Shown one piece after another: positions 7,666-51,830 of a DNA stretch of 64,000 nucleotides. Below the pieces are notes generated by a model. It was not told where the DNA came from and made no database searches. It saw only the letters and a program-made list of their open reading frames with translations. Each line of letters begins with the position of its first letter. Within the stretch, counting starts at the first letter, position 1. The position numbers were made by a program, and so were the translations under genes. Source of the stretch: Chloroflexota bacterium (GTDB lineage Bacteria; Chloroflexota; Dehalococcoidia; Bin125); contig VXQZ01000049.1 of assembly GCA_009838735.1 (NCBI GenBank), positions 1 through 64,000 on the forward strand, read 5' to 3'.

Positions 7666-7803
7666 GATCTGGACTCCATCCCCTGAGCTCTGGTGCCTGA
7701 GAGGCATGGTACGGGCTGATCGAGCGGGCGGGTGACAGGCGCCAAGAATCACTATGATGTCGGCGATCAGGCGCGCGATGCGGCGCCCGCGGAAGGTTCC
7801 TGC

Positions 7804-9003
7804 ATGCTTGCCCGTTGTCGCACCCATCTCATGATCGCCATTGTCGTTGCGGCGGCGATTGTCGTGACCACGCTGATTAACCAGCTCATGTTCGAATCGG
7901 CCGAAGCTGATTCGCACGACCGCGTCACGACCGAGGTGCGGATCAACGCGAAGCAACTGGCCGACGGACGCGTCGAGTTCGCCCTGCAGCAGTGGGACGG
8001 CAGTCAGTGGGGCGAGCGAATCCTGCCGCGTCCCCGGCTCTTCCCGGCCAACTCTCCCGTCGATCTGTGGCGCAACAGCGGTGGGATCGAGGTCCAGACG
8101 CCCGTGCCAGCAGCGCCAATGCCCTCGCTTTGCGTGGTCGCAAACGGCGATTCCGACGAACTGTTCTGGCAGTTCGTGGAGTTCCACGCTGCACGGGCGG
8201 CCAATCTGATTGGAGTGAAGCTCGACTACTCAACCCACACCAACGTCGATGATCGAGTCGACGCGATCGAGCAATGCGTCGATGACGGCGCGAGGATGAT
8301 CCTCGCCACCCTGGCTGACGCCGACCAGATCATTCCGGCGCTGGAAGCAGCAGCAGAGCATGGCGTCCAAATCGCCAGCTTCGGAGCGGGCGAAGAGCAT
8401 GCCGACCGTGCCGGATCGCTCATCCACGTCTCGATGGACGAAGCCGCGGCCGGTCGCCGGGCAGCGGAACAGTTCAACTCGGCCGCCGTTGCCGGGCCAG
8501 TCCTGTGCGTGGTCCATCACGACGCGTATGCAGCCCGCAAGAACATCTGCACCGTGCTGGCGGAGGAGTACATCGGCGGCGATGTTGAACAGCTTCAACT
8601 CGGCGCCGAAGACGCCGACGAACAGATCGACAGCACCCTGCGTGACATCCCCGACCTGGCCGGGCTGCTCGTGCTGGAAGCCGATCTCCTGCCAGCTGCA
8701 ATCAGGGCTATCGAGGACTCGGACGACCCGCCATTCCTCGGTTCGATCGGTGAATACCCGCTGAGCAAGCTCGGGTTTGCGAAGCGGGACCTGATTCGCT
8801 TTACGGTGATGGACCTGGCGCGCTTTGAAGTGTTGCTCGCCGCAGCGGCGCTGCACTACATGTACGCCAACCATCCCAACGCCCGATTCTTCGAAGGCGC
8901 GATGATCTTTGACGGCACGCCCAACGTCCACATCGGAGGCCCGAAGGGCGGTCACGGTCGCCCTTCGACCGATGACGGCCACGGTCACGACCATGATCAC
9001 TAA
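7804..9003 (+). CDS. anchored periplasmic-binding-like protein with WGERxLP module and His-rich tail
   Basis: A 399-residue extracytoplasmic protein. Start at 7804 is supported by GGAAGG 7 nt upstream; a 24-codon extension is open but lacks a ribosome site. Residues 9-29 are an uncleaved-looking membrane anchor. Residues 45-97 are the WGERxLP module (WGERILP at 69-75). Residues 108 to about 365 are a type 1 periplasmic-binding fold (Peripla_BP_4-like) with cysteines in SLCVVANG, IEQCVDDGA, VLCVVHH and NICTVL. The last 17 residues are rich in His, Asp and Gly (GHGHDHDH end), a likely metal-binding tail. No transporter gene is adjacent; CoA-transferase genes follow. Ligand unknown; ribose-type sugar-binding proteins are the closest general fold. 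Confidence 0.85.
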   Translation: MLARCRTHLMIAIVVAAAIVVTTLINQLMFESAEADSHDRVTTEVRINAKQLADGRVEFALQQWDGSQWGERILPRPRLFPANSPVDLWRNSGGIEVQTPVPAAPMPSLCVVANGDSDELFWQFVEFHAARAANLIGVKLDYSTHTNVDDRVDAIEQCVDDGARMILATLADADQIIPALEAAAEHGVQIASFGAGEEHADRAGSLIHVSMDEAAAGRRAAEQFNSAAVAGPVLCVVHHDAYAARKNICTVLAEEYIGGDVEQLQLGAEDADEQIDSTLRDIPDLAGLLVLEADLLPAAIRAIEDSDDPPFLGSIGEYPLSKLGFAKRDLIRFTVMDLARFEVLLAAAALHYMYANHPNARFFEGAMIFDGTPNVHIGGPKGGHGRPSTDDGHGHDHDH

Positions 9004-16241: not shown

Positions 16242-16529
16242 CGGCTGACGAACGCGAGCCGTCCCTTCGGCCGCATACAGAGTCCCTGCTTCACTCAACG
16301 CCTGTCCCGGTTCTCACCGCGGCGCCACGTGTCCATCGCGACGCGAGTGATAGCGAGTTCCCTCCGGGCATCAGCAGCTGCCAACGTGCAGCGAGTGTTT
16401 ATGTACCTGCTGAAGTGCTCTGTCCGCCTCGGAAATGTACATAACACTGACAGAACTGTAAATTCAGCCATATCATTGAGCCTCGACATTGATGGACCTC
16501 TCATGGATGGATGATTGCGGGGATTTAGC

Positions 16530-18950
16530 GTGCGCCGAACATTCCGTCTGATCCGCACTGGCAGGGCCACAACGCTGGTTCTTTTCGTAGCTGCCGTAGC
16601 AACTGCGCTCGTGAGCATCGCGTTGGTCTCCGAAGTGGGCGCGCATCCGCCGGCCGAGGGCCCATCCATCCGCGTCTCAGCACTCAAAGGCGAAGACGGG
16701 CGGGTGACCGTTGGCGTTCAGGTGCTCGAGGAGGATGGTCGGTGGGGCGAGCGGCTGCTGCCGACAAGGCGTGTCATCTCGGCTAGCTCTCGGGCCAATA
16801 CCTGGCTGCGCAGTTCGCCGGTCACTATTGACGGCGGTAACGAACTGAGGCCGCTCTTCTGTGTGGTGGCGCATGGCGGAACTGACGACCACTTCTGGAT
16901 GAAGTTCCGTTCCTTCCTCTACCAGGCAGCCGATCGGAGCGCTAGCAATCTACGCTTCGAGACTCACTTGCAGGCCGATGACCAGGTAGCCGCCATTGAA
17001 CGCTGTGTCTCAGATGGCGCGGCCGTCATTGCCTCGACTCTGGCGAGTCCTGACGATGTCCGGGAACCTCTGATGCAGGCCAAGGCCGCCGGGACGCAAG
17101 TAATCACCTTCAACGCCGGTGTCGAGCACGCCAAGAGCGTCGGCTCAGAAATCCATATCGCGCTCAACGACCACGCTGCGGGGGAACTGGCAGGACAGCA
17201 GTTCAATGAGCGCGGCATCACCGGCCAAGTCGCCTGCCTGATCCATGAGCGAGACAACCTCAGCCTCGAACATCGCTGCGACGGACTCGAGGCCTCCTAC
17301 CAGGGCGCTGGCGTCATGCGGATTCGTCTCGAGGAAGTCGACTCTCATCTCGAGCACGATCATGGCAGCTACGTCGACGATCTGGCCGAGGTGCTCATTG
17401 AGGATCAGCAAGGGATCAAGTACGGCGCCCTGCTCACGTTGAACGCCGACACGCTGACGCATGCATTGACCGCCGTTCAACAACTCGACGGCGCTGCGGA
17501 CGGATTGGTCATCGCCTCGGTGGGATTCAACGTCGATGATCTCGCGGAGATCCCCACGGATTTGCTCGATCTGCACCTTGGATCGCTGATTAGCGACAGC
17601 GCTGATGCGCAGGGGTTCTTCGTTGGCAGCGCGCTGCAGCTTTCTTACAACTTGCACAATGCCCATGTCATCGGGCAGCCCCAGTTGTGGCTGGCCGATC
17701 CTTCCCTCCTTGACCATCACACCGTTGGTGGCAACGCTGAAACACTCGAAGCCCTTTCCGCCTCACTCGATCGGATCATCGAGCAATACTCCACGTCGCG
17801 GCGTCCTGCACCAGGTGTCAGGGTCCGCGTGGCCGCGCTCAAGCGCGACGACGGCTCGGTCGCCTTCGCGATCGAGTCGATGGGGGCCGAGGGTCGTTGG
17901 AGCAGCCGACAGTTGCCGCAGCGTCGCGTCCTCTCCACAGATGCGCCCACCGGGGCCTGGTCAGCGAGTTCAGCGGTCGAGTTGTCGAGCGCCGCCGAAC
18001 AGGCGCCTCTCTTCTGTGTGGTCACGCACGGCTCCAAGGAGGACCGATACTGGCAGGTCGCACGCGCATACATGCACGTCTCAGCCCACGTCACGAACAC
18101 CAACTGGCGCTACGAAGCCCATCTTGACGGCGCCGACCAGGCCGCGGCCATCGACCAGTGCAGCGCCGACGGCGCCGTCGTCATCGCCTCCACTCTCGCC
18201 GATCCCGAGGCGGTGACCGACTCACTGCTTGCCGCCAAACAGGCAGGCGCTCGGATTGTGACCTTCAACTCCGGCGGCGACTACGCCGCCGCCGCTGGCT
18301 CCGAGATCCACGTCGCATTGGACGACCGTGAAGCGGGCGCTGCGGCCGGGCGTGTCATCAACGAGCACGACATCAGCGGACCGATCGCCTGCATCTTCCA
18401 TGAAACCGGCAACGTTGGCCTGGAAGAACGCTGCGAGGGTCTGGAGGCTACTTATCAGGGCGGGAGCGTGAGTCGGCTGCAACTCACCGAGGGAGCGACA
18501 GACGAGCAGGTAATCGACGAGCTCGTCAATGCCTTGACGGATCCCGAGCGACCGGCGATTGAACTGGTACTCACCCTCAACGCCAATACCCTATTCGGCG
18601 CGTTGGACGCAGTCAGTCAAATCCACGCCGAAGGCGGTCGGACGATACAGGTCGTCCCGATCGGTACGCACGTCGAGCTGATACGTCGCTCTACTCCAGA
18701 GACGAGAGCGCGTCACCGGCTAGCGGGGTTTAACGACAGTGTCGAGTCGCAGGGATTCCTCGTCGTCAGCGCGATGCACTTCGTCCACCATCATCCCACG
18801 CCACCCGCATTCATCGACAGACCGCAGCTTTGGCTAGCCTCTCCGTTTGCCTTTGATACCAGACGGGCGGGCAGGGATCCGGCCGCCTCCAGAAGGTCCA
18901 CTGCGACACTCAATCGGTACGTGGAAGAAGCCGCCGCAGACGACAAGTAA
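16530..18950 (+). CDS. two-unit anchored periplasmic-binding-like protein (copy A)
   Basis: About 806 residues. GTG at 16530 is preferred because GGGGA lies 6 nt upstream; TTG at 16515 is the alternative. Residues 12-36 form a membrane anchor or signal ending near AHPPAEGP. Two units follow. Unit 1: WGERxLP module 46-101, binding domain 108 to about 415. Unit 2: module 430-486 (degenerate core WSSRQLP), binding domain 493-806. Each domain has the same landmarks: LFCVV.HG, an ERC or DQC segment followed by DGA.VIASTLA, TFN(A/S)G, and a (C)LIHE..N.(S/G)LE.RC(D/E)GLEA.Y motif, with four cysteines per unit (unit 1: 111, 159, 236, 250). The fold resembles type 1 sugar-binding proteins. No transporter is adjacent. 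It is a tandem duplicate of the gene at 19629. Confidence 0.85.
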   Translation: MRRTFRLIRTGRATTLVLFVAAVATALVSIALVSEVGAHPPAEGPSIRVSALKGEDGRVTVGVQVLEEDGRWGERLLPTRRVISASSRANTWLRSSPVTIDGGNELRPLFCVVAHGGTDDHFWMKFRSFLYQAADRSASNLRFETHLQADDQVAAIERCVSDGAAVIASTLASPDDVREPLMQAKAAGTQVITFNAGVEHAKSVGSEIHIALNDHAAGELAGQQFNERGITGQVACLIHERDNLSLEHRCDGLEASYQGAGVMRIRLEEVDSHLEHDHGSYVDDLAEVLIEDQQGIKYGALLTLNADTLTHALTAVQQLDGAADGLVIASVGFNVDDLAEIPTDLLDLHLGSLISDSADAQGFFVGSALQLSYNLHNAHVIGQPQLWLADPSLLDHHTVGGNAETLEALSASLDRIIEQYSTSRRPAPGVRVRVAALKRDDGSVAFAIESMGAEGRWSSRQLPQRRVLSTDAPTGAWSASSAVELSSAAEQAPLFCVVTHGSKEDRYWQVARAYMHVSAHVTNTNWRYEAHLDGADQAAAIDQCSADGAVVIASTLADPEAVTDSLLAAKQAGARIVTFNSGGDYAAAAGSEIHVALDDREAGAAAGRVINEHDISGPIACIFHETGNVGLEERCEGLEATYQGGSVSRLQLTEGATDEQVIDELVNALTDPERPAIELVLTLNANTLFGALDAVSQIHAEGGRTIQVVPIGTHVELIRRSTPETRARHRLAGFNDSVESQGFLVVSAMHFVHHHPTPPAFIDRPQLWLASPFAFDTRRAGRDPAASRRSTATLNRYVEEAAADDK

Positions 18951-19628: not shown

Positions 19629-22061
19629 ATGACTACAGGCAAGCCCGAATACATCCGTATGAGCCGAACGCAAGCTTGGGTGACGATTGCATTGGGACTG
19701 GTCATCGCATTCACGACCCTTGCCAGCCTCTCGCTTGTCAACGTTGCCAAGGCGCATCCGCCTGCTGAAGGCCCATCTGTCCGTATTTCTGCGCTCAAAG
19801 GCGATGGCGGTACAGTAACGGTCGCCATCCAGGTGATGGGACCGGACGGCACCTGGGGTGAGCGGCTGCTCCCGGCCAAGAGCCTCCTGACAACTACCTC
19901 CCCCTACGACACCTGGCTGCGTAGTGACGCGGTCAGCATTGATCGCGGCCGCGATCTGTCGCCGCTGTTCTGTGTAGTCGCGCATGGCGCACCCGACGAT
20001 AGCTTCTGGCTGAAGTTCCGTGCCTTCCTCTACCAATCTGCCAACCTGACCGACAGCGATATACGCTTCGAGACGCACTTGAGCGGCGCCGACCAAGCCG
20101 CTGCGATCGAGCGCTGCATCGCCGACAATGCTGCGATGATCGCCTCGACCATGGCAAGTCCCGCCGACGTTAGCGGGCCACTGATCAGGGCCAAGGCAGA
20201 AGGCGCTCGGATTGTCACCTTCAACGCCGGGCTTGAGCACGCCGAGAGCGTAGGCTCACAGGCCAACATCGGACTCAACGACCGAGCGGCCGGCGAACTG
20301 GCGGCGCGCGAATTCAATCAGCGCGGCATTAGCGGTCAGATCGTCTGCCTCATCCACGAACGAGACAACCTCAGTCTCGAAGATCGGTGCGACGGGCTTG
20401 AAGCCGTCTACGGGGGCGCTGGTGTGACCCGAATTCGGCTTGAGGAAGCAGCGAACGACCTTGAGCATGGTTCAACCAGTCGCATCGATAGGATTGCCAG
20501 CCTGCTCGGAGGTACAGAGGGGCCGCCGTACGACGCTGTGCTCGCGCTGAACGCAGACACATTGCGGCAAACGCTCGCCGCAGTGAGTCGATTGGACGGC
20601 GCCGCCGAAGGACTGCGAATCACCGCGGTTGGCGCAACGTTCGATGACTTGGTCGGATTCCCCGAGGCGTTGCTCGAACAGCACGTCGATGTGCTGATCA
20701 GCGACAGCGTTGAAACTCAGGGCTTCTTCGTCGCGAGTGCGATGGAGCTGATCTACAACGTGCACAATGGCAGATTCGCCAGCCAGCCACAGCTATGGCT
20801 AGCTCAACCCTCGCTCATTCGCTACCAAACTGCCCGCGAGAACACCGACGAGTTCGAGTCCATTTCGGCCTCGCTCGAGCGGTTGATCGAACAGTCCCGC
20901 ACGACGGAGCGCCAAGCAGTCCAGGGCGATGTCCGGGTCGCTGCCTTCCAACGACTCGATGGCTCGATCGTCTTCGCGATCGAGTCGTTGGGAGCTGACG
21001 GCCGATGGATCAGACAAGACCTGGGCCCACGGCGCGTCTTACATGTCGATGCGCCCACCGGCCGTTGGTTGTCGACCTCGGCGGTTAAGCTGTCGAGTCC
21101 CTCTGAACACGCCCCGCTCTTCTGCGTGGTCACGCATGGTTCGAAGCAGGACTACTACTGGAAAGTATGGCGCGCCTACATGCACCTGGCCGGCCACCTC
21201 GCCGATAGCAACTTCCGCTATGAGTCGCATCTCGACGGCGCTGATCAAGCAGCGGCCATCGACCAGTGCAGCGCTGACGGCGCCGCTGTGATCGCCTCCA
21301 CGCTGGCGGATCCAGAGGCGGTGACGGATTCCTTGCTGGCCGCCAAGCGGGCTGGGGCTCGAATTGTCACCTTCAACTCCGGCGACCGGCACGCCGCCGC
21401 TGCCGGCTCCGAAATCCACGTCGCCCTGGACGACCGCGAGGTCGGTCCCATCGCGACGCGCCGAATCGCTGAGGAAGGCATCACAGGGCCGATCGCGTGC
21501 ATCATCCACGAGGACGGCAATGACGGGCTGGAGGAACGCTGTGACAGTCTGGAGCAGTCCTACACGGGAGCGAGCGTCATCCGACTGAGACTGACTGAAG
21601 GTGCGACGAACGCACAGATTGTCGACGAGCTCATCACTGCCCTGACTGATCCTCGGCATGTCGACATTGAACTCGCGATGGTGCTCAATGCCGACACGAT
21701 GCTCAATGCTCTTGATGCGTTCGATCAAATTTTCACCGCGTCCGGGCGCAGTATCAGAATCCTGTCCATCGGAGCAACTGTCGATCTTGCACGGGTGAGC
21801 CTGGACATCAGGAACCGCCACCTCAGGGCGCTCTTCAACGATAGTGTCGAGTCGCAGGGTTACCTGGTCATGAGCGCGATGCAGTTCGTCCACAACTACC
21901 ACACTCCGGCCGAGCTCGTTGGCAGTCCTCAGCTCTGGATGGCTTCTCCATACCTCCTCGACTCAGCCAAAGCCCGCGCTGCTGTGACTGCGGAGGAACT
22001 GCGCTGGCTGATCACGACCCAGCGGCGGTATGTGGCCGAGGCCGCGGCAGACGACGAGTAA
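19629..22061 (+). CDS. two-unit anchored periplasmic-binding-like protein (copy B)
   Basis: 810 residues, paralogue of the protein at 16530. Residues 15-40 form an anchor followed by AKAHPPAEGPSVR, nearly the same as copy A. Unit 1: module 51-104 with WGERLLP, binding domain from 113. Unit 2: module around 434-490 with a decayed core (RWIRQDLGPRR), then a second binding domain to the C-terminus. The four-cysteine pattern is kept in each unit. By eye the two paralogues agree at more than half of positions, with unit 1 aligning with unit 1 and unit 2 with unit 2. The two-unit layout therefore predates the gene duplication. AGGGGA lies just before the ATG; ATG at 19659 is an alternative start. 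A CoA-transferase follows. Confidence 0.85.
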   Translation: MTTGKPEYIRMSRTQAWVTIALGLVIAFTTLASLSLVNVAKAHPPAEGPSVRISALKGDGGTVTVAIQVMGPDGTWGERLLPAKSLLTTTSPYDTWLRSDAVSIDRGRDLSPLFCVVAHGAPDDSFWLKFRAFLYQSANLTDSDIRFETHLSGADQAAAIERCIADNAAMIASTMASPADVSGPLIRAKAEGARIVTFNAGLEHAESVGSQANIGLNDRAAGELAAREFNQRGISGQIVCLIHERDNLSLEDRCDGLEAVYGGAGVTRIRLEEAANDLEHGSTSRIDRIASLLGGTEGPPYDAVLALNADTLRQTLAAVSRLDGAAEGLRITAVGATFDDLVGFPEALLEQHVDVLISDSVETQGFFVASAMELIYNVHNGRFASQPQLWLAQPSLIRYQTARENTDEFESISASLERLIEQSRTTERQAVQGDVRVAAFQRLDGSIVFAIESLGADGRWIRQDLGPRRVLHVDAPTGRWLSTSAVKLSSPSEHAPLFCVVTHGSKQDYYWKVWRAYMHLAGHLADSNFRYESHLDGADQAAAIDQCSADGAAVIASTLADPEAVTDSLLAAKRAGARIVTFNSGDRHAAAAGSEIHVALDDREVGPIATRRIAEEGITGPIACIIHEDGNDGLEERCDSLEQSYTGASVIRLRLTEGATNAQIVDELITALTDPRHVDIELAMVLNADTMLNALDAFDQIFTASGRSIRILSIGATVDLARVSLDIRNRHLRALFNDSVESQGYLVMSAMQFVHNYHTPAELVGSPQLWMASPYLLDSAKARAAVTAEELRWLITTQRRYVAEAAADDE

Positions 22062-48377: not shown

Positions 48378-50009
48378 TCAGTTGTCGCCGTCCCCAGCGT
48401 CATCTCCTGAATCGCCACTGTCGGATCCATCGTGCTCCGCGCTATCACTGCCGGTCAGATAGCGCTCCTTGATTTCCGGGGGGATCAGCCCGCTCAGCAC
48501 GCGTTGCATCTGTTCGGCATCGGCGATCTGCGGTTCGATCAGCATCGCCATCCCGTTGAACAGCGTGACCGGATCGAGTCTCATGCGCTCGATCAGCAAC
48601 GCGCCCATGACGCCCAAGTAGGTCTGGACCAGCGGGTGGTCGTAGATGGCGAACATGATCTTGCCTTCCTCAACCCACTTGGCGAAGCCGAGGTTGAACC
48701 CGAAGGTGGCCAGCGGAACCTCGGGGTCGGGCCACTGCGCCCGGAGGACGGCGGAGCCGACAGAATCGGAGAGTGCCATCACGGCGCCGATGTCGCCCTG
48801 GGCGTACCGTTCGAGCACTGCCTCGGCGGCGTCCCGGCCTTCGTGGCTCCAGGTCTCGACTTCTCCGTTGGCGTAGGTCGCCGCGAGACCGTCACAGCGC
48901 TCCTGCAGACCGATGTTGTTGGCCTCGTGAATGACGCACAGGATCGTGCCCTCGGTGCCTTCACGGTTGAACTGTTGACCGGCGACCTCACCGGCGCGGC
49001 GATCGTCGAGGCCGATGTGGAAGCTGGTGCCAACATCAGCGGCGGCGTGGACGCCGGAGTTGAAGGACATGACCGGGATGCCGGCCGCCTTCGCCTCTGC
49101 AATCGCTGGCGCCAGATCCTCCGGCGAAACCAACGTGGTCGCAATCGAGACGGCGCCGTCCTCGACGCACTGCCGAATCGCATCGGCCTGGTCTGAAACC
49201 TGACTGAACGACTGAGCGCGCACGTTGATGCCGAGGGCTGCCCCAGCAATGATCGCGGAGTCGGAAGCCTGACCCCAGAAGAAGTCCTGTCCGCCGTGGC
49301 TGATCACGCAGAACAGATCGTCGCCGGCGGGCAGCTGCGGGTCGATGGGCTCGAACCAGTAATGGACCCAGGTCCAGCCGAGATCGGGGTTGTTGAGCAA
49401 CACGTGGTCGCGAGCGAAGACGGCCGTCTCGAGTATATGGTTCGAGGTGGCCAAGATCTGCGAGATTTCGCCGGCCAGCAGGCGACGCTCCACCTCATCG
49501 GCGACCGCGTTGTAGTCGTCCGACTCGATCACATCGACGCCGGCTGGGAACGTCTCGCCGATCCCGTCGCACAACGCGCCCAGTGTGGCTTCTGAAGGAT
49601 TGACCAGGCAGAGTACCGGGGCGAGCGATTCGAGGTCGTCATCAGAATGGAATCGGCCAACGAAGTACTGCCCGTACAACCGACCGACTTCAACCAGATA
49701 GTTCTGATATTCGGTGGCGATGAACTCGGCCCGGGTGACGAGATCGAACACGACTGGAGAGCTGTATTTCACCTTCCCGACCTCTGTCTCGGGGAGCAGG
49801 AAGCGACGCTCTGGCTTCTTCGTCTCGCCCCACTCTCCGTCGTCACCGCGCTGCTGCAAGCCAATCTCGACACTGCCGTCCTGGAGCCGCTCGACCGAGA
49901 CACGAACTTCGAACTCCTCGTCTTCGCCATTCCGGTCCACGGCCCAGACTCCGCCCAGCGCCGCCGCTCCGATCAGCGTGCCGAGCAGAAGAACAATCAA
50001 TGTCCGCAT
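48378..50009 (-). CDS. anchored binding-like protein with WGERxLP-type module and half-domain remnant
   Basis: 543 residues. Residues 3-22 are the membrane anchor (LIVLLLGTLIGAAALGGVW). Residues 35-88 are the module (core WGETKKP). Residues 131-200 (PVLCLVNPSEATLGALCDGI and following) match the second lobe of the binding domain found later in the same protein (TILCVIHEANNIGLQERCDGL). Residues 232 to about 505 are a complete binding domain (LFCVISHGGQDFFWGQ, IRQCVEDGA, SIATTLVSPED, MSFNSG). Thus the first unit has lost its first lobe. The C-terminal 26 residues are Asp, Gly and Ser rich. Paralogue of the next gene upstream. No transporter is adjacent. Confidence 0.85.
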   Translation of the reverse strand: MRTLIVLLLGTLIGAAALGGVWAVDRNGEDEEFEVRVSVERLQDGSVEIGLQQRGDDGEWGETKKPERRFLLPETEVGKVKYSSPVVFDLVTRAEFIATEYQNYLVEVGRLYGQYFVGRFHSDDDLESLAPVLCLVNPSEATLGALCDGIGETFPAGVDVIESDDYNAVADEVERRLLAGEISQILATSNHILETAVFARDHVLLNNPDLGWTWVHYWFEPIDPQLPAGDDLFCVISHGGQDFFWGQASDSAIIAGAALGINVRAQSFSQVSDQADAIRQCVEDGAVSIATTLVSPEDLAPAIAEAKAAGIPVMSFNSGVHAAADVGTSFHIGLDDRRAGEVAGQQFNREGTEGTILCVIHEANNIGLQERCDGLAATYANGEVETWSHEGRDAAEAVLERYAQGDIGAVMALSDSVGSAVLRAQWPDPEVPLATFGFNLGFAKWVEEGKIMFAIYDHPLVQTYLGVMGALLIERMRLDPVTLFNGMAMLIEPQIADAEQMQRVLSGLIPPEIKERYLTGSDSAEHDGSDSGDSGDDAGDGDN

Positions 50010-50116
50010 CTCGCCATTCCTCTCTCTGGCCGCGCAACGGGTCGGCGCGCGCCGTGATTCTCAAGCGATTGGCGACCGGTAGCCGCCCTGGTTCGGGTTA
50101 TGCAATCAATTGAAGC

Positions 50117-51652
50117 CTATTCCTGCCATTCGGTCAGGGAATCGAGCAAGGCCTGCATTTCTTCGGCGTTGACGATCGTCGGCGTGATGAGCATCTGGGC
50201 GCTGTTGAAGTAGGACATCGGATCGATCCGCAGGCGCTCGGTCAACAATGCGCCGACGGCGGCCAGGTAGGACTGGATCTCGGGATGGTCGAAGATGGCG
50301 AACATGAGCCTCCCGTCGGCGACGTACTCGGCGACGGTCCGGCTGAAACCGAACGTCGCGCCCTTCACGTTGAGCCGCGAATCGAAGATGGCGCTGCGGA
50401 TCTCGACGCCGATCGACGACGACAGACCGAGCACAGCGCTGACGTCACCTTCATCTAGTCGCGCGTGCAACTCCTCGACCGTGGTGTCACGATCGGTCAT
50501 GCTCCAGCGTTCGACAGTCCCGTTGAAGCTCTCCGTGAGCCCGTCGCAGCGGTCGTGGAGTCCCTGGTTTTCCGGCTCATGGATGACGCAGAGCACGTTG
50601 CCCTCAATGCCCCGTCGGTTGAACTCCTCGCCAGCCACGCGGCCGGCCACAAGATCGTCAAGCGAAATGTGCAGGGCGGTGCCCACCTCGGCGGCATCTT
50701 CAGCGCCCGAGTTGTAGGAGATTACGGGAATGCCCGCGGCGATTGCATGGCGGACCGCCGGTTGCATTGCTTCGGGATCGGCGAGGGTGGTGGCGATGGC
50801 GACCGCGCCGTCGGCTACGCAGCGTCGGACGGCATCGGCCTGCGCGGCGCTGTTGGTGTAGACCTCGTTGCGCACGTTGATTCCGAGCATGCCGGCGGCG
50901 GCGACAGACGACTCGGCCGCCAGGCCCCAGAACAGGTCTTCGTCGCTGCCGTGACTAATCACGCAATGCAAATTGTTCGGCGGGGGCAGATGCGGATCAA
51001 TCAGCTCGATCCAGTAGCTCCAGGGAATGAATCGGCGGGTCGCCTCGCGCGCCTCGTCGACGATGTTGGCAGTGGGCACGCTTGTGGCGAAGAGTGCCCC
51101 GAGTTCCCGATCTTCCAACAGCCTCGTTTCCAACTCGACTCGGAAGTCGTCGTAGTCGCTGACCTCCCAGCGCTCGACTTCGCCACCGTAGGTTGACTCG
51201 ATGCCGTCGCAGTAACTGCCAAATCCGGGATCATTGAGGTCATTGACGCAGAGCATCCTGGGAAGGTCCCCGGCGCCACCAAGTCGCTCGTGGAAGCGCA
51301 GGGCCGATTCTTGTCCGGAGGCGAAGAGATATTCCGCGTAGGCACCCGCGACGGTCTCGTAACGGCTGTCCGTATCGACGATCACGACGGAACTGTGCAA
51401 CGGGCGGTCAGCCCGGGCACCGGCGAGCAGGAAGCGATGCTCCGGCCGGAGCGTCTCGCCCCATTCGCCACTCACTTCGCGCTGCTGCAGCCCAACCTCG
51501 ACATCTCCGCTGGCGTGGCGCTCAACGATGATGCGTACGTCGACGGCGCCATCGGGATCGTCGGGAGTGTTGGCCACATTCGCCCAAACCGCCCCCAGTG
51601 TCGCGGCGCCCAGGATGAACCCCAATGCGACCCAGATGAGATTTCGCATCAT
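50117..51652 (-). CDS. anchored binding-like protein with WGERxLP-type module and half-domain remnant (paralogue)
   Basis: 511 residues from ATG 51652, preferred because GAAAGG lies 6-7 nt upstream; a GTG at 51658 is also in frame. Residues 5-25 form the anchor and residues 38-92 the module (core WGETLRP). Residues 131-205 are the leftover second lobe (RMLCVNDLNDPGFGSYCDGI), and residues 227-511 a full binding domain (LHCVISHGSDEDLFWG, VRRCVADGA, AIATTLADPEA, ISYNSG, VLCVIHEPENQGLHDRCDGL). Same architecture as the 48378 protein, without the acidic tail. The pair lies in tandem, with a 107-bp gap. Ligand unknown. Confidence 0.85.
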   Translation of the reverse strand: MMRNLIWVALGFILGAATLGAVWANVANTPDDPDGAVDVRIIVERHASGDVEVGLQQREVSGEWGETLRPEHRFLLAGARADRPLHSSVVIVDTDSRYETVAGAYAEYLFASGQESALRFHERLGGAGDLPRMLCVNDLNDPGFGSYCDGIESTYGGEVERWEVSDYDDFRVELETRLLEDRELGALFATSVPTANIVDEAREATRRFIPWSYWIELIDPHLPPPNNLHCVISHGSDEDLFWGLAAESSVAAAGMLGINVRNEVYTNSAAQADAVRRCVADGAVAIATTLADPEAMQPAVRHAIAAGIPVISYNSGAEDAAEVGTALHISLDDLVAGRVAGEEFNRRGIEGNVLCVIHEPENQGLHDRCDGLTESFNGTVERWSMTDRDTTVEELHARLDEGDVSAVLGLSSSIGVEIRSAIFDSRLNVKGATFGFSRTVAEYVADGRLMFAIFDHPEIQSYLAAVGALLTERLRIDPMSYFNSAQMLITPTIVNAEEMQALLDSLTEWQE

Positions 51653-51830
51653 ATTCACCTTTCGTTACGTCGAGTAGTTCGACGCATCCGTATCGTACCG
51701 AGAACGATCGGCGTGCAGAATCGAGTACTGCGGTCCGGATTCACGGCCAATCTGATGTTCCCTGGTGCGAGTGGTCGATCAACGACCGGGAGCGCTTATC
51801 CTGCCGACGGCGCAATCGGGCAATCAGTTC

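Follow-up and report, generated by a model that had tools for sequence, protein, structure and literature searches.

We report two neighbouring proteins, P0001 and P0002, that probably are envelope-anchored, sugar-receptor-like proteins in which a solitary second lobe (lobe 2) of the type I periplasmic binding protein (PBP) fold, inserted in a single-unit ancestor, now acts as a non-binding spacer or docking domain. The extra lobe (from here: the half) lies between an N-terminal module and a complete PBP domain. The analysed window, i.e. the whole stretch of 64,000 nucleotides, is located on contig C38 of a 3.15-Mb genome. P0001 and P0002 share 47% identity overall, and their tandem arrangement was found again in related genomes. 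The features used here are the following:

48378–50009, minus strand: P0001, an open reading frame of 543 amino acids with an N-terminal hydrophobic segment, module, half, type I PBP domain (Peripla_BP_4) and acidic tail
49752–49931, minus strand: module of P0001, residues 27–86 (profile match E 2e-31)
49359–49733, minus strand: half of P0001, residues 93–217, a single PBP lobe 2 with a helix, three strand-helix pairs and a strand
48486–49319, minus strand: PBP domain of P0001, residues 231–508 (VIA Z 32.1 to 4ru1 over 276 residues)
48675–49013, minus strand: lobe 2 of P0001, residues 333–445
50117–51658, minus strand: P0002, 513 amino acids, tandem paralogue of P0001 with like architecture
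51383–51550, minus strand: module of P0002, residues 37–92 (profile match E 9e-29)
51008–51367, minus strand: half of P0002, residues 98–217 (shuffle p ~7e-8 versus its own lobe 2)
50135–50977, minus strand: PBP domain of P0002, residues 228–508 (PF13407 E 9e-23)
50324–50665, minus strand: lobe 2 of P0002, residues 332–445
16515–18950, plus strand: P0003, a two-unit protein of the order module-PBP-module-PBP with two Peripla_BP_4 stretches
19629–22061, plus strand: P0004, a second two-unit protein

The half and lobe 2 of the type I periplasmic-binding fold are homologous. The first-pass annotation had aligned the inter-domain region of both proteins, at about residues 131–205, with the second lobe of the same protein; all four peptide strings that it quoted are present in P0001 and P0002, and the self-alignments, profile comparisons and structural models agree with this similarity. 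In Smith-Waterman comparisons with 1000 shuffles each, the inter-domain region of P0001 scored 62 against its own downstream part (shuffle maximum 60, Gumbel p ~2e-4) and that of P0002 scored 89 (shuffle maximum 57, p ~7e-8), while the crosswise comparisons between the two proteins yielded p values of 2e-7 and 1e-6. A half profile of 23 rows, made of 12 P0001-type and 11 P0002-type proteins, matched the profile of their own lobe 2 in hhalign with a probability of 97.9% (E 4.6e-13), whereas there was no match to lobe 1 in the profile-profile comparison (P 0.69). The half region of P0002 was recognized by the half profile at E 7e-55 and by the lobe-2 profile at E 6e-7. The segment is short and divergent, with 20 of 102 aligned residues identical to the own lobe 2 in P0001 and 27 of 106 in P0002. 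A Pfam search with the half alone gave no significant match, and the sole solved structure matched by the half profile was the second lobe of 4ru1, weakly (E 0.06). Chance similarity between half and lobe 2 was ruled out by the shuffle tests together with the profile-profile match.

The predicted structure extends this homology beyond the boundaries first proposed: residues 131–205 do belong to the lobe-2 match, but its extent is better given as about 93–217, from the first helix to the last strand of lobe 2. In the AlphaFold2 model of P0001 (mean pLDDT 80.8, 90–97 across most of the half), the half consists of H93–120, E132–136, H138–153, E158–162, H166–179, E184–187, H190–206 and E215–217. 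This is the same order of helices and strands as in lobe 2 (H336–350, E356–360, H366–378, E384–388, H394–403, E409–412, H415–424, E433–436). Since matches to the complete PBP domain took up all the VIA results for the full-length model, the half was also folded and searched alone. The lone half was modelled with a pLDDT of 86.7 and matched the C-terminal lobes of the sugar-binding proteins 4irx, 3rot, 2fn8 and 4ru1 with Z values around 10 (up to 10.1), modestly above the best Z of 7–8 that models without a clear match reach in VIA, so that the fold evidence backs the sequence evidence and does not substitute for it. Its VIA matches were PBP/LacI-fold proteins, mostly their C-terminal lobes. 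The Foldseek matches include 7qsp, an engineered permuted C-terminal lobe of the Thermotoga ribose-binding protein, as well as a circularly permuted lumazine synthase and other alpha/beta folds.

The first-pass annotation described these segments as fossils. However, the half is conserved among orthologues about as strongly as lobe 2 (0.77 versus 0.76 in the P0001 group, 0.69 versus 0.76 in the P0002 group) and recurs in further paralogue groups, and the median dN/dS of its core, 0.125 and 0.185 (i.e. 0.13–0.19), compares with 0.157 and 0.142 for lobe 2. Purifying selection acts on the half as it does on lobe 2, and the half is a maintained domain; a decaying remnant was ruled out by the conservation among orthologues and by dN/dS. 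Since it is common to P0001 and P0002, the half is older than their duplication. In a class-wide search of 393 genomes, full-length halves were found in the own genus only, in 14 of its 15 genomes, and one other genus gave weak partial matches only, to the ordinary lobe 2 of single-unit proteins. Across the phylum, a draw of 400 likewise returned the half from the own genus only. Further half-bearing paralogues within the genus are L072, L073, L074, L075, L076, L077, L078, L079 (two of them) and the divergent L110. The named orthologues come from Chloroflexota/Dehalococcoidia metagenome bins, and many of the named loci and genomes are the same assemblies, hence these counts are not independent.

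The residues that distinguish the half from lobe 2 were compared by aligning 23 halves with 83 lobe-2 segments. The cysteine pair of the LC...C-D-G motif is kept in all 23 halves. The ligand loop's conserved arginine (Arg371 equivalent), which directly precedes the second cysteine, is present in 80 of the 83 lobe-2 segments and in none of the halves, all of which have Leu, Tyr, Ile or Met there. We take this arginine to be the equivalent of the ligand-binding Arg141 of E. coli RbsB. The His-Glu motif has changed as well: 22 of 23 halves lack His361, and the equivalent of Glu362 is mostly Asp. With the Arg, His and Glu of the ligand loop lost, ligand binding by the half appears unlikely from these alignments. 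At the arginine position, the former cleft face of the half has turned hydrophobic.

Residues 224–507 of the P0001 model superimpose on 4ru1 in VIA with Z 32.1 and rmsd 2.6 over 276 residues, i.e. as a two-lobed type I PBP fold. PF13407 matches P0001 at residues 235–468 (E 1.1e-24), and the scores of 87.8 bits for P0001 and 81.6 bits for P0002 against a curated cut-off of 35.1 place both in Peripla_BP_4. The best NCBIfam model for the complete domain was that of the rhizopine-binding proteins, NF052284, far below its cut-off. Among known receptors, those of the inositol/rhizopine type come closest to this type I PBP domain.

The evolutionary direction was addressed with trees of the PBP domain, in which half-bearing, single-unit and two-unit proteins were combined with module-less CUT2-type proteins that served as the root. 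A quick tree comprised 84 rows and a careful tree, from which long branches were left out, 64 rows. The half-bearing proteins form one clade in both, with support of 100/99 in the careful tree. Units 1 and 2 of the two-unit proteins are each other's closest group and form a separate clade (98/96), and single-unit proteins are placed around both clades. Forcing the half-bearing PBP domains together with unit 2 was rejected (AU p 3.0e-10), as was forcing them together with units 1 and 2 (AU p 7.6e-4). Fitch parsimony required two changes and returned a single-unit state for the common ancestor. Outside the own genus, G140 is the one genus of the family that has module-PBP proteins, and all those found there are single-unit. 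Together, the separate clades, the AU rejections, the ancestral state and the forms in G140 argue that half-bearing and two-unit forms arose separately, each from single-unit proteins, and the half would have arisen once, from a one-unit ancestor. Common two-unit ancestry with P0003/P0004 was ruled out by the AU tests, the separate clades and the Fitch state. A rooted tree of the host domain can thus overturn a first guess at direction, which here had run from the two-unit form to the half.

L110 has a long branch. Constraining it into the half clade gave AU p 0.603 and a slightly higher log-likelihood, and it may belong there. Its region at about residues 101–236 (G073:C19) is very divergent and was matched by the lobe-2 profile and not by the half profile. 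L110 either branched off deep within the clade or represents a second origin of the half. The two-unit form, for its part, may be a fusion of a tandem pair like L090 (G073:C8) and L091 (G054:C28), loci with tandem single-unit PBP genes akin to the two-unit clade. Within the window, positions 7732–9003 on the plus strand encode a strongly diverged single-unit module-PBP protein, which has a very long branch in common with L108 and L111. The single-unit protein L092 (G054:C57) carries an acidic low-complexity insert of about 80 residues (residues 89–166) between module and PBP domain, at the place where P0001 and P0002 carry the half.

The donor of the half was analysed with a tree of lobe-2 segments (122 columns) and AU tests, and with a column bootstrap of similarity. 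The AU tests rejected none of three constraints, which joined the half to its own lobe 2, to unit 1 or to both two-unit lobes (AU p 0.52–0.59). The own lobe 2 was the group most similar to the half, without significance in the column bootstrap, which did not separate it from two-unit unit 1 and several single-unit groups as the nearest relative; only module-less PBPs and, marginally, one single-unit group were more distant. The position that follows the third strand holds Ser in 22 of the 23 halves and also in 22 of the 23 second lobes of these proteins (Ser189 of the half corresponds to Ser414 of its own lobe 2), whereas it is Asn in 39 of 45 single-unit and 7 of 8 two-unit proteins. This common serine hints, without proving it, at an origin of the half from the lobe 2 of its own lineage.

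A partial duplication or insertion of lobe 2 in a single-unit ancestor, between the module and the complete PBP domain, would account for the present architecture. The inserted lobe would then have lost ligand binding and been retained as a rigid alpha/beta spacer or docking domain, probably stapled by a disulfide, that lies between the receptor and the membrane-side module. The face that once met the ligand would be hydrophobic, as expected for protein-protein contact. The extra lobe may set the receptor off from the module or dock to a partner, perhaps the tandem paralogue. Most likely, the half has been turned to a new, non-binding use as a spacer or docking domain.

A separate ancestor, since lost, is an unlikely though serious alternative: a two-unit protein or tandem-gene fusion independent of P0003/P0004 would have been pared down to module, lobe 2 and PBP domain. 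Tandem pairs are common in this family (P0001/P0002, L079, L090, L091), making fusions easy, and a two-unit fusion did occur once. On the other side, the genomes searched contain no surviving intermediate, the junctions carry no remnant of a second module or of lobe 1, and more events would be needed than for a partial duplication. We give very little credence to a further version, according to which unit 1 of a protein of the P0003/P0004 lineage was deleted except for one lobe, the half. This is the first-pass proposal of descent, by loss of one lobe, from two-unit proteins such as those at 16530 and 19629. The half is indeed a real lobe 2 at the expected position of unit 1, and in the segment tree its grouping with the two-unit lobe 2 was unrejected (AU p 0.589). 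The host domains nevertheless fall into separate clades with both joint groupings rejected and a single-unit ancestor, and the proposed direction is not supported. Losing one lobe would not suffice either: the C-terminal part of unit 1 and the second module would also have had to go cleanly, and there is no trace of either. Moreover, of the 8 genus genomes searched for two-unit proteins, only 3 yielded them, compared with 14 of 15 for the half. Convergence of an unrelated flavodoxin-like domain on a lobe-2 look is the least credible reading. Single alpha/beta domains of this sort are common, and lumazine synthase and other alpha/beta folds appear among the Foldseek matches. However, the reading is ruled out by a profile match that hits the own lobe 2 and misses lobe 1, by LC...CDG cysteines at corresponding positions and by the PBP/LacI-fold matches in VIA.

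A different role for the half is conceivable and distinctly improbable, namely that P0001 and P0002 are receptors with three lobes. The extra lobe 2 would then mimic the real one or compete with it for lobe 1, either of the same protein or of its tandem partner. If so, the outcome would be a closed state that is permuted and needs no ligand, and a PBP's own half would serve as a natural, built-in switch or decoy.

Several known systems resemble parts of this architecture. CUT2/Peripla_BP_4 sugar-binding proteins such as 4ru1 from Acidothermus cellulolyticus, which has the same LC...RC motif as the C-terminal domain of P0001, and the Caulobacter myo-inositol binding protein 4irx are full type I PBPs like the C-terminal domains of P0001 and P0002; P0001 and P0002 differ in being anchored behind an N-terminal module, in the extra lobe and in having no CUT2 permease beside their genes. 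XylFII (5xsj/5xss) has the same fold as the PBP domain of P0001 (VIA Z 27.9). It is the receptor partner of the LytS sensor, a PBP that signals via a partner and does not feed a permease, and it is not known to carry a half-lobe. This analysis identified no sensor partner of P0001 or P0002. GlnPQ, like P0003 and P0004, has more than one binding-fold unit per chain, but there two complete substrate-binding domains are fused to a transporter (PMC8025302), whereas P0001 and P0002 combine one complete domain with a half. The PBP fold is thought to have come from the doubling of a single flavodoxin-like lobe, an idea tested with engineered single lobes (PMC9815098, PMC10601554). The single lobes RBP-CPN and RBP-CPC engineered from the Thermotoga maritima ribose-binding protein demonstrated that a lone type I PBP lobe folds (PMC9815098), and halves of this protein form a heterodimer (PMC10601554). 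Isolated lobes of this kind can fold, form dimers and pair again (PMC9815098, PMC10601554), so docking by the half is plausible, though not thereby demonstrated. In contrast to these laboratory-made lobes, that of P0001 and P0002 is natural, tethered upstream of a complete PBP and devoid of the conserved ligand-loop residues. A literature search for natural single-lobe solute-binding proteins gave no match, which is not proof of novelty. With its natural, conserved and unpaired lobe next to a complete PBP, the architecture shows that evolution also uses the single lobe as a building block in its own right.

Regarding a role in transport, no match to the CUT2 permease family PF02653 was found within the window, and the genome contains five such matches, on contigs C10, C13 and C39 only, compared with 14 Peripla_BP_4 matches. 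The N-terminal module also occurs on unrelated envelope proteins, including Cu/Zn superoxide dismutase, PKD, cadherin-like/Big_9, RCC1 and other solute-binding proteins, and therefore is more likely a general export or anchoring element than a ligand-binding part. No Pfam family was recognized for the ~55-residue module itself. It is present at L018, L020, L023 and L025 to L030 in envelope-type proteins (including Peripla_BP_6 and SBP_bac_6), sometimes in tandem. Within the window, the Cu/Zn superoxide dismutase at 711–1463 on the minus strand (PF00080, E 1.4e-31) carries the N-terminal module of the PBP proteins. On contig C10, at about 80.8–85.7 kb, the module-bearing Peripla_BP_6 protein L018 is located near two PF02653 matches, so the module alone does not exclude transport, and module-bearing binding proteins may sometimes serve transporters.
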